NCBI GenBank assembly: GCA_016125215.1
Contig: WGMF01000034.1
Span: forward strand, 1-64,000
Direction of reading: 5' to 3'
Length of the DNA stretch: 64,000 bases
Source: Phycisphaera sp.
Lineage (GTDB): Bacteria; Planctomycetota; Phycisphaerae; Phycisphaerales; Phycisphaeraceae
Position numbers and translations under genes: made by a program. Positions within the stretch are counted from its first letter, which is position 1. Every line of letters begins with the position of its first letter. The notes beneath the pieces are model-generated. The model was not told the origin of the DNA, made no database searches, and worked only from the letters and a program-made list of their open reading frames with translations. This document shows, one piece after another, positions 45,981 through 63,265 of this stretch.

Positions 45981-46056
45981 CAACGACGCCACCGGCTCTC
46001 GCCGTGACAGCCCCGCATGATCATGCGGGGACGTGACGCCAAATTTCTCACAACCC

Positions 46057-60344: not shown

Positions 60345-61601
60345 TCAGACCGCAATCACCCGTTCCAGCACATCCAACCCGCGGTGGACCTCGTCATCGG
60401 TGACGACCAGCGCCGGTGCCAGGCGCAGCACGAGCGACTGCGCCGCGTTGATGAGCAGGCCCTTTTCCAGGCACGTGTCCACGACTTCTTTGGCGGACTT
60501 GAACCACGGTTGGTGTTCGGTTGTCAGTTCGACGCCCACGAACAGGCCCTTGCCTCGAACCTGTTTGATGTGCGGGCAGTTGGCCGCGAAGCGGTTGAGG
60601 CGTTCGATCATCAGTTGGCCCAGTTGCGAGGCGCGGTGGAGCAGGTTGTCGCGTTCGATGATCTCGAAAATCTTAGCGGCCACCGCCATCGAGAGGCAGT
60701 TGCCCCCGAGCGTGGTGGCGTGGCGCACGACGCCCTGTTTGGCAGCGTCGTAATAAGCCGCCATTTTTTCATTGGCGCACATCACGCCGACGGGCAGGCC
60801 GCCGCCCACGCCCTTGGCCAATGTCATGATGTCGGGCGCGACGCTCCAGTGCTGGTGCGCAAACCACCGCCCCGTGCGACCGCAGCCGGTCCACACCTCG
60901 TCGCAGACCCACGCAAGGTCGTGCTCATCGCACAACGCCCGCACCCCGGGAAGGTAATCGTCGCTGGGCATGTTGACCCCGCCCTCGCCCTGGATCGGCT
61001 CGAGCATGACGGCGCAGGTCTCGTGATCGATGGCGTTCTTGAGCGCTGCGAGGTCGTTGAAGGGGACGTGGACGAAGCCCGGCAGGTGGGGCGAAAAACC
61101 GGTGCGGACTTTTTCCTGACCCGTGGCGACCATCCCGCCGAACGAGCGTCCGTGGAAGCTGCCCAGCGCGGTGATGACTTTGTAGCGCCCGTCGGGGCCG
61201 GTGGCCTTGTGCGGTTTGGCTTTGCCGTGCAGGCGTGCGAGTTTGATGGCGGCGTCGTTGGCGTCGGCCCCGCTGTGGCTAAAGAGGCTCCTGCCCGCAA
61301 AGCCGTGGCGGTGGATCGCCCCGGCGATCCGCGTCTGGGGCTCGGTGTGGAAGAGGTTGCCCACGTGCCAGAGGGTCTGCGCCTGTTGGTGGACGGTCTG
61401 GACGAGTTCGGGGTGACAGTGCCCGAGGATCGGCCCGCCGAAGCCGGCAAAGAGGTCGAGGTATTCCTTCCCGTCCGCGTCCCACATCGTCGCGCCTTTG
61501 CCCCGCACCAGGGCGATGGGATAGCGCACGATGTTGTTCACCATGTATTCGTCGTGGGCGCCGATGATCTGTTGCGTGGTCTTTGTCTGAGGCTTAGTCA
61601 T
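60345..61601 (-). CDS. Class III aminotransferase (acetylornithine type)
   Basis: A 418-residue PLP enzyme. Motifs: GKEYLDLFAGFGGPILGHCH, SHSGADANDAAIKLARLHGK, GSFHGRSFGGMVATGQEK, VMLEPIQGEGG, CDEVWTGCGRTG and the PLP Lys in DIMTLAKGVGGGLPVG. It resembles acetylornithine/ornithine or gamma-aminobutyrate aminotransferases; the acceptor is 2-oxoglutarate or pyruvate. ATG 61601 has GAAAGA upstream and begins the fold; ATG 61616 is an alternative. The frame is open further upstream through a REP palindrome into the transposase-like domain (61617-62132), so a 595-residue fusion is possible but unlikely to be the main product. Confidence 0.88.
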   Translation of the reverse strand: MTKPQTKTTQQIIGAHDEYMVNNIVRYPIALVRGKGATMWDADGKEYLDLFAGFGGPILGHCHPELVQTVHQQAQTLWHVGNLFHTEPQTRIAGAIHRHGFAGRSLFSHSGADANDAAIKLARLHGKAKPHKATGPDGRYKVITALGSFHGRSFGGMVATGQEKVRTGFSPHLPGFVHVPFNDLAALKNAIDHETCAVMLEPIQGEGGVNMPSDDYLPGVRALCDEHDLAWVCDEVWTGCGRTGRWFAHQHWSVAPDIMTLAKGVGGGLPVGVMCANEKMAAYYDAAKQGVVRHATTLGGNCLSMAVAAKIFEIIERDNLLHRASQLGQLMIERLNRFAANCPHIKQVRGKGLFVGVELTTEHQPWFKSAKEVVDTCLEKGLLINAAQSLVLRLAPALVVTDDEVHRGLDVLERVIAV

Positions 61602-61616
61602 ATCTGAATCTTTCAT

Positions 61617-62132
61617 AGACGCGGATGAATACCCGCGTTGAGCGTGTGTTTGTTTTTTTGTATCCGTTTCACTCCACCGCACACCGCCGTGCCGTGGCAG
61701 GTATTGCCCCATAAGGTACTCAAAATGTTTCTGATCCGTGACACGCTTTCGGCTCGCCCCGCGCCCGAACCACGGACCTGTTTGATCGAGCGTCTTACTC
61801 AACTCCGCGCCTAGTCGGCGTTTGAGTGTGTTGCTCACCGTTTTCCATTCCAAGAACTCGCACCAGCTCACGAGCAGATGCGCGTGTGTGGTCGAGGTTG
61901 CGATCTGATGCAGACGCCAACCGTTTTCACAGCAAATTGTCTGGGCCTCGCTCACGAGGATCGTTTGTTTGGGTTGATCGAATATCACCGGTGGGTGGCT
62001 GGCGCGATCGTTGTATTCCCTGGCCGCCCCGTGATCTTGGGGAAGAACCCCTTCCCCTTTCCGTACATAACCTTGTGGGCGGTCGGGCATCCATGAGCGG
62101 TAGGCGTGGAAGGTGAACAGGTAGACCGCCAT
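61617..62132 (-). CDS. REP-associated Y1/HUH transposase-like protein, no stop of its own
   Basis: 172 codons from ATG 62132. It opens VYLFTFHAYRSWMPDRPQGY, similar to REP-associated tyrosine transposases (RAYT), and has the HUH-type metal motif in STTHAHLLVSW (His-Ala-His) and an expected catalytic Tyr region QKHFEYLMGQYLPRHGG. The gene is flanked by palindromes with an CCGCGGAT core: a pair at 62151-62217 upstream and a single degenerate copy at 61620-61637 downstream. The frame reads through the downstream palindrome into the aminotransferase without a stop codon. It should cut single-stranded REP hairpins. Intact catalytic residues suggest it may be active, or recently so. Confidence 0.7.
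61620..61637. repeat. Degenerate single REP (family B)
   Basis: CGCGGATGAATACCCGCG: arms CGCGG and CCGCG. It is the downstream partner of the pair at 62151-62217 and lies inside the open frame between transposase and aminotransferase. Confidence 0.75.
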
Positions 62133-62150
62133 GTTGTGAATTGTATCGGG

Positions 62151-62217
62151 GACCGCGGATATTCATCCGCGGCTACAAACAACACAGCTTCACAGCCGCG
62201 GATGAATATCCGCGGTC
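62151..62217. repeat. REP pair (family B) upstream of transposase gene
   Basis: Arms 62151-62173 and 62195-62217 are perfect 23-bp inverted copies. Each arm is itself a hairpin (CCGCGGAT with ATCCGCGG). It lies between the divergent transposase and membrane-protein genes. Confidence 0.92.
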
Positions 62218-62239
62218 TTGGCTCTATCATCCGCACTTT

Positions 62240-63265
62240 GTGACACGCACGCATGTCATCCTCGACGGTCTGCAGGACCCCGCTCTGGCGCAGGCGTTGT
62301 CCGCGGCGTGGGCGCGGGCAGGCTTAAGCAACAGCGTCGACCCGGCGGGGCAGTGTGCCGAGTTGCGGCACGACCACATGACGCAAAGCGAGATCGACCG
62401 GTCGGCGGCGATCGCGCGGGCGTTTGGTATCGAGCTGCGTGACCGAGCGGGTCAGGCTTTTGTTGCGGACAACGATCTTGCGCTCTTGCGTGAACAGACC
62501 GCGAAAGAGTATCGGGCACGTCTGGCGCAGGCACTGGTCTATCTCCTGCCGGCGGTCGTCTTGCACTATGTCGGGCCTTACCTCGCGGAGGGCGGCGGGC
62601 GTGAGCCGTCGGCGATGCTTTACCCGTGGCTGTTCGAGGCGCTGCTGGTGGGGTGGGCGTGCTTTGTGGGGGCCTGGCCGATCCTGTGGCAGGGCGTGGC
62701 CGCGGCGAGACACCTGCGAGCCACGGGCGACTTGTTGGCATCGGTCATCATCCTGTTGAGTTACCTGCCCTCGGTGTGGGGCACGCTGTCGCTGCTCTGG
62801 CAGGACCACGCGTGGTTTGGCACAGCCGGGCCGATGTGTCACGCCACGGCTTACACGGTGTTGATCGCACTCACACAGCGTTACGCACTGCACCGTCATA
62901 CGGACGGGCTTGCGGGCAGGGGGGCGATGCTCTTGCGCGGTCACGCGCGGCTGGTTGGCACGTGGTTGCTCGTGATGGCGCTGCTGTTCATCGGCGTGTC
63001 GATGACCACTTCCATCGCAACGGGATGGTTTGTATCGCTGACGTTTGGGATGCTGCTGCCGCCTTTGGTTTCACTCGGCGCGGTGAACCGAATCACCCCG
63101 GGCTGGTCGAGCGTGCTGCCGATCTTCGCGTTTGCGGTGGTGTTCGTGATGGGCAAGGTCGGGCAGGTAGACATCACCCAAGTCCGCGTGGAGGTCGCCG
63201 CGGGGTTCGGGCTGTTGATGACGGGTGTGATGGTGTGGGGCTGGCGCGGGTGGCGAACGAGTTAA
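62240..63265 (+). CDS. Membrane protein resembling a truncated P1B-type ATPase
   Basis: A 341-residue protein, start GTG 62240 (the longer open frame begins in the REP and is not credible). The N-terminal 70 residues look like a degenerate HMA domain (THVILDGLQDPALAQALSAA), without the CxxC. Residues about 90-170 resemble the first helices of heavy-metal P1B ATPases (YLLPAVVLHYVGPYL, GAWPILWQGVAAARHLRATG, DLLASVIILLSYLPS). After that come four more helices (LVMALLFIGVSMTTSIATGW, GLLMTGVMVWGWRG) but no phosphorylation DKTGT, ATP-binding or CPx metal motif. It may be an unrelated membrane protein; the similarity is weak. Confidence 0.6.
   Translation: MTRTHVILDGLQDPALAQALSAAWARAGLSNSVDPAGQCAELRHDHMTQSEIDRSAAIARAFGIELRDRAGQAFVADNDLALLREQTAKEYRARLAQALVYLLPAVVLHYVGPYLAEGGGREPSAMLYPWLFEALLVGWACFVGAWPILWQGVAAARHLRATGDLLASVIILLSYLPSVWGTLSLLWQDHAWFGTAGPMCHATAYTVLIALTQRYALHRHTDGLAGRGAMLLRGHARLVGTWLLVMALLFIGVSMTTSIATGWFVSLTFGMLLPPLVSLGAVNRITPGWSSVLPIFAFAVVFVMGKVGQVDITQVRVEVAAGFGLLMTGVMVWGWRGWRTS

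Follow-up and report, generated by a model that had tools for sequence, protein, structure and literature searches.

The closest described counterparts of the locus reported here are the REPtrons of class 2 RAYT/TnpAREP proteins, such as E. coli rayT and 4er8 (PMC2817692; PMC6006769). As described in the consulted parts of these sources, they combine a Y1/HUH fold and one catalytic tyrosine with a low copy number, flanking REPs with GTAG-type feet, extragenic REPs and co-variation of gene and REP, and our locus is like them in each of these traits. TnpAREP binds the hairpin together with its foot in single-stranded form; the foot contributes to the choice of CT through its A and G, and the tyrosine cuts and rejoins the DNA (PMC8266576, in the part consulted). 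The survey by Quentin (2018; PMC6006769) gives, in the sections used here, YxxxNP as the motif of class 2 and YxxxxQ as that of class 3 (TnpAY1, from Planctomycetes, Acidobacteria and Proteobacteria), and drew its candidates with Pfam Y1_Tnp at E 0.01. GTAG REPs have already been published for Planctomycetes (Di Nocera, 2013; PMC3733652), and the consulted text of that study includes R. baltica among the species with several coexisting REP families.

Here we describe a locus in a 64,000-nt stretch of Phycisphaera sp. DNA (contig WGMF01000034.1, assembly GCA_016125215.1; hereafter, the window) that is very probably a REPtron, with a single-copy RAYT-type Y1/HUH single-strand endonuclease gene flanked by its cognate REPs. 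The predicted fold, the TAG-footed hairpins, their co-variation with the protein and the extragenic copies in relatives together argue for a REPtron with GTAG-type REPs.

Organization of the locus

The features of the locus, in window positions, are as follows:

60345..61601, minus strand: argD (acetylornithine/succinylornithine transaminase family), in frame with the RAYT gene
61602..62132, minus strand: RAYT-like Y1/HUH coding part, with HUH residues H83 and H85 and the putative catalytic Y144 in YLPRHGG, without a stop of its own
61616..61638, plus strand: REP 3, degraded, between RAYT and argD inside the open frame; foot ATAG; REP model 31.8 bits
62153..62175, minus strand: REP 1, gene-proximal; foot GTAG; 8-bp stem and 4-nt loop; REP model 37.9 bits
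62193..62215, plus strand: REP 2, inverted partner of REP 1; foot ACAG; REP model 35.0 bits
62240..63265, plus strand: divergent neighbour gene, without a Pfam match

The first-pass annotation had proposed an HUH-motif gene of 172 codons with an inverted pair of palindromes upstream and a single degenerate palindrome downstream. The gene is present, with the metal motif T-H-A-H in a minus-strand open reading frame (ORF) that starts at ATG 62132, and both palindromic elements lie where they had been placed. The gene is not closed, however: no stop codon precedes argD, and the frame runs uninterrupted from ATG 62132 to 60345 (595 aa), its first ~155 residues being the Y1/HUH protein and its last 418 ArgD. 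Lacking a stop, the RAYT frame thus crosses the downstream palindrome and opens into argD, a gene of arginine synthesis. A search of 61550–62300 detected no sigma-70-like promoter.

Upstream of the gene, two 20-nt palindromes (CCGCGGATnnnnATCCGCGG; 62153–62172 and 62196–62215) form a perfect inverted pair, which folded as DNA at −32.2 kcal/mol (z −10.3; 0 of 200 shuffles equal or better). REP 1 and REP 2 are a REPIN-like pair whose feet face each other, and the GTAG foot of REP 1 consists of the TAG of the 23-nt unit and the G at 62176. The degraded downstream palindrome, folded as a 61-nt stretch, reached −8.1 kcal/mol (z −3.2), with 1 of 200 shuffles as good. There is one REP downstream of the window RAYT versus two in some relatives, and the foot of REP 3 overlaps the in-frame argD ATG at 61616–61614. 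By its retained GTAG-type foot (GTAG, ACAG and ATAG), the palindrome falls within the known architecture. An Rfam search with the inverted pair returned eukaryotic or viral miRNA and snoRNA look-alikes, all sub-threshold, which we attribute to chance. A weak additional match to the REP model lies elsewhere in the window (46008–46030, 21.4 bits).

Predicted fold and family models

A protein lacking the Y1/HUH fold had been named in advance as evidence against the REPtron reading; the predicted structure of the window protein has this fold, in its IS200/IS605-type form. The AlphaFold2 model (22-row alignment) has a pLDDT of 94.7, and with it Foldseek matched 2f4f (E 2.5e-4) and 4er8 (1.8e-3). 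Among the VIA matches listed, rows 1–15 are IS200/IS605-type transposases (Z 13.1–14.9, with 2ec2 at 14.9) and row 16 is TnpAREP 4er8 (Z 10.8, 122 residues, rmsd 2.9), which stands only about 1 above the unrelated Thg1 enzymes that come next (Z 9.7). The 4er8 alignment extends to model residue 161, beyond the Y144 helix. Furthermore, all 22 aligned sequences share H83, H85, Y144 and H148 without exception. The fold and the HUH site are shared with IS200/IS605 TnpA (2xma, 2f4f, 2a6m and others), yet the clade gene, unlike these, is not multi-copy in the genomes examined and its REPs spread without it.

Pfam Y1_Tnp (PF01797) gave the window protein 13.3 bits (E 0.093), less than the curated cut-off, which is set at 23 bits. 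When its own genome was searched with Pfam at E ≤ 0.1, seven other Y1 places were returned, six of them above the cut-off and none of them the window gene. An E of 0.01 was reached by 8 of 22 clade members with Y1_Tnp and by 6 of 22 with the NCBIfam RAYT model NF047646. The latter (cut-off 80) scores E. coli rayT at 179 bits and clade member L019 at 18.2, L018 and L022 being unlisted among its matches. The best NCBIfam match of the window protein is the IS200 model, a weak one (15.3 bits against a cut-off of 55). PHROGs, plasmids and phages searched with the window protein gave no match.

A clade of planctomycete proteins

Matches to the protein at E ≤ 1e-4 are present in 28 of 51 family genomes and, at 1e-15, in 22 of the 392 genomes of a phylum sample (9 candidates scored per genome). 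Scanning genome contigs with the clade alignment gave 46 loci, 45 titled Planctomycetota (among them Aeoliella, Lacipirellula and Adhaeretor, which we take to belong to this phylum) and one titled uncultured bacterium; because the scan relied on one peptide pattern, relatives without it would be missed. The 51 distinct loci compared below are the window, 42 of these 46 and eight more from family genomes. They leave out L139–L142 (short weak matches), L036–L043 and family-genome matches without a fetched locus; L036 is nonetheless part of alignment A1.

In a tree of 62 proteins, 47 clade members lie on one side of a branch with 99/99 support, and E. coli rayT, four class-2-like genes of the own genome, five class-3-like rows and five others lie on the other. 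Of the comparison with RAYT and IS200 TnpA that had been suggested for this protein, the RAYT part sets the clade apart, and the tree contains no IS200 reference sequence. It also omits L134–L137 (ORFs shorter than 140 codons), and its bootstrap is unsettled, with several long outgroup branches, although the split of the clade was retained. The Y-motif reads YLPxH in 38 of the 47 clade rows, the rest being eight variants and one row missed by the pattern; none has YxxxNP.

By sequence, this is a Planctomycetota clade with the Y-motif YLPxHxG, a motif that differs from every class motif given in the consulted part of the 2018 survey (PMC6006769). We rejected the filing of the window gene in class 2 or class 3 because the Y-motifs differ. 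From class 2 RAYTs, as characterized in the same sections, the clade differs in having YLPxHxG rather than YxxxNP and a foot that is mostly ATAG. With TnpAY1 class 3 it shares the phylum and REPtron-like flanking structures, whereas its YLPxHxG motif and YAG foot contrast with the YV[VI]xEQ and CnGA given for that class in those sections; two genes of the own genome, on C18 and C33, are closer to class 3 in their feet than the window gene is. Among the matches listed in a search of full-text literature on RAYTs and REPs in planctomycetes, from which subscription papers and supplements mostly fell outside, we found no description of a YLPxHxG clade. The analysis brings into view a clade of planctomycete RAYTs that Pfam and NCBIfam models match only weakly, with cognate REP families exceeding 100 matches in two relatives.

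Eight same-genome pairs occur among the named contigs, and the seven computed are 40–57% identical, which indicates that they are not recent copies. Paralogues of the window protein in its own genome are weak (24–34%). Values of dN/dS were 0.12–0.36 in nine pairs, hand-picked and overlapping, two of them with dS above 1.8. DNA matches place a prolyl-tRNA synthetase gene next to the RAYT in L128, L130, L133 and L135. Six loci have the RAYT on the downstream side of an aconitase gene, in one orientation in L109, L110 and L138 and in the opposite one in L115, L117 and L124; Pfam confirmed the neighbour in L109, L115 and L128. That two RAYT sub-clades occupy this position in opposite directions could reflect repeated insertion into a single site or inversion between REPs. 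Judged from these comparisons of sequence, the behaviour of the gene is RAYT-like rather than IS-like.

Flanking hairpins and their co-variation with the protein

Of the near flanks of the clade genes, 57 of 100 contain a strong hairpin, compared with 5 of 95 windows farther away and 21 of 500 shuffled sequences. With a looser hairpin threshold, the proportion of hairpins with a TAG foot is 99 of 151 close to the clade genes, 8 of 60 at a distance and 16 of 154 at 29 argD loci. At least one TAG-footed hairpin is present at 44 of the 51 clade loci and none at the other 7. The feet read ATAG (70), GTAG (11), CTAG (8) and TTAG (7), with the first base unread in 7, and four hairpins are footed on both sides. 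In the group nearest to the window, the REP unit has 23 nt and consists of YAG, an 8-bp stem and a 4-nt loop starting with G. Every row of REP alignment A2 has AG in its foot, for which the rows were chosen; they were also selected as palindromes, so their pairing counts are no independent proof. The orientation of the REPs varies among loci, and the full -+|-+ order is not general.

Protein and REP similarity are correlated (r 0.499 in 40 of the 44 loci with TAG-footed REPs; Mantel test, 0 of 2000 permutations, which ignore relatedness), and the correlation persists in the 765 pairs below 60% protein identity (r 0.405). Mean REP identity is 0.45, 0.50, 0.74 and 0.94 at protein identities of 0.3–0.4, 0.4–0.5, 0.5–0.6 and above, respectively. 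Because the gene, foot, stem and loop change in step, this clade, which differs from the E. coli one, allows comparisons of REP recognition among its members. The GTAG REP super-family, as presented in the consulted text (PMC3733652), has the same short hairpin and unpaired GTAG-like foot and lists Planctomycetes; the REP families described here differ in being tied to one protein clade by co-variation. The earlier proposal of a planctomycete equivalent of the RAYT/REP system with a different palindrome stands in its first part, given the Y1/HUH fold, the TAG-footed loci and the further copies described below; as to the second, the stem differs and the GTAG-type foot is kept.

Dispersed REP copies

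The exact palindrome pattern (CCGCGGAT, 0–12 bases, ATCCGCGG) has three places in the own genome, two at this locus and one at C31:129812, and is present in 14 of the 51 family genomes; the reversed-pattern control gave 0 throughout. This further copy runs counter to the possibility, raised by the first-pass annotation, that the palindrome would have no other copies in the genome. Allowing ≤2 mismatches in the 16-base core raised the count in the own genome to nine places (control 1), and the 23-nt unit with ≤3 mismatches was found in 9 of 51 genomes, including four places in the own genome (control 0).

A REP model, derived partly from REPs of the genomes searched, extended the count to relatives. 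At E ≤ 1 it gave at least 149 matches in G036 and at least 129 in G012 (minimum counts, as scoring covered 150 candidates), 53 in G030, 45 in G023 and 31 in G027; this threshold is loose and gives some match in 44 of 51 genomes, so small counts mean little. The own genome has 14 such matches, at least five of them strong: the three at the window locus and the two units of an inverted pair on C31 (at 129812 and 129857). This pair stands alone, with one ORF ending immediately ahead of it and a convergent SET-domain ORF on its other side.

ORFs of ≥150 codons contain only 5 of the 26 REPs sampled, the other 21 lying outside, whereas they contain a fraction of 0.83 of 1040 random positions. The sample is the top of the REP-model list, with 20 REPs from G036, taken at one score and hence alike by choice, and six from G012, where seven stretches had been retrieved. 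Most dispersed copies examined in G024, G027 and G028 are single and unpaired (30 of the 46 places of the ≤3-mismatch unit were inspected). Some genomes have REP-model matches without a RAYT match, namely G030 (53), G028 (15) and G026 (9), and G024 (16) has only a weak one (4e-5); all four are drafts of 76–95% completeness. In G030, G028 and G026 the RAYT has perhaps been lost or is missing from the drafts.

The join with argD and the probable site of insertion

The ArgD part is a clear aminotransferase (Pfam Aminotran_3, 4.4e-109; TIGR00707, 414.7 bits) and has one match in the own genome at E ≤ 1e-80. Its start is probably ATG 61601–61599, the ATG under the foot of REP 3 being a second in-frame one upstream. 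None of 29 argD stretches, fetched from the 35 relatives with a match, contains a RAYT match. A homologue of the divergent gene adjoins argD with no RAYT between them at 8 of these 29 loci, where the gap is 143–401 bp versus 663 bp here. The RAYT-free loci and their shorter gaps suggest that the unit entered, or largely replaced, the intergenic region in this lineage, whose genus is represented among the 51 family genomes by the own genome only. Viewed by eye, the argD gaps of L069, L084 and L086 hold other inverted or related repeats of the GAGCCGYGACCGT type, and the gap of L084 between argD and the divergent gene holds a lone REP-like palindrome.

An open frame of ≥240 codons from the gene start is found at none of the other 50 clade loci. 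With ~24 codons between the usual RAYT end and argD, an arithmetic estimate puts the chance of an open in-frame join at about one in ten. It is quite improbable that the frame is a real 595-aa fusion or that the RAYT-REP segment now drives argD, with a REP hairpin-binding domain captured as a leader or N-terminal domain of this biosynthetic enzyme and the degraded REP encoding the linker. Were the fusion translated, the locus would exemplify directly the joining of a REP transposase to a host gene.

Alternative explanations and a proposed mechanism

The small number of REPs in its own genome speaks against reading the locus as a REPtron and is what one would also expect of a dead one, in which the stop and the outer REP are gone and the RAYT is undergoing decay within the 5' region of argD. 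The missing stop, the degraded REP 3 and the single REP downstream fit such decay, as do the clade ORFs shorter than 140 codons (4 of 51). However, all invariant residues and the open frame are retained, the upstream pair is perfect, and dN/dS to the G027 copy is 0.13, albeit at a dS of 2.5 and averaged over both lineages. We regard a dead REPtron as possible, though rather unlikely.

An autonomous IS200/IS605-type insertion sequence with the palindromes as its ends would have the same fold, and it could account for the higher Z of IS200/IS605-type TnpAs relative to TnpAREP and for the NCBIfam IS200 model as best weak match. The divergence of the seven computed same-genome pairs led us to reject a multi-copy IS; moreover, own-genome paralogues are weak, neighbourhoods are conserved across some genera, plasmid and phage searches found no copies, and palindromes far outnumber the gene in G036 and G012, making this explanation very unlikely. 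That the hairpins merely serve neighbouring genes as ordinary terminators or regulatory stems, with no relation to the HUH gene, is hardly credible: although 61550–62300 contains three terminator-like calls against a shuffle mean of 1.1, hairpins co-vary with the protein and have dispersed copies in relatives, and their concentration, with TAG feet, at the HUH gene and not at argD loci led us to reject unrelated terminators.

For the REPtron, TnpAREP offers a model by analogy. Most probably, the protein would bind single-stranded DNA in which a REP has folded into a hairpin, with the stem-loop and the xYAG foot as points of contact; the foot's A and G may help to choose the CT for cutting. Y144 would cut, with the metal held by H83 and H85, and the strands would be rejoined. 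REPs or inverted REP pairs could thereby be copied or moved to extragenic places, and the unit here would sit in the gap between argD and the divergent gene with its frame opening into argD. In 114 REPs, CT occurs 52 times at tail offsets 2–6 and 38 times at nine other offsets, a mild enrichment. The window protein probably helps to spread its palindromes. The gene seems to descend mostly by inheritance, and the unit might have some effect on argD.

Other Y1 genes and palindromes

A further suggestion was that the window gene might have given rise to other REP families of its genome. The family of its own REPs there is small, and other Y1 genes carry palindromes of their own, so this role was discarded: the GAG-footed kind, with 21 places within 3 mismatches (reversed control 0), belongs with other Y1 genes. 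We identified these palindromes at a class-3-like Y1 gene (G000:C18:11979-12766; L014, L177) whose REP family is larger in the own genome than that of the window gene. A second class-3-like gene (G000:C33:166515-167152; L013, L179) has its own CGAG-footed palindromes, with three places. Furthermore, a class-2-like Y1 gene with the motif YIHANP (L176, G000:C53) lies between two long inverted palindromes, at 1396–1418 and 2035–2057 of the reversed locus.
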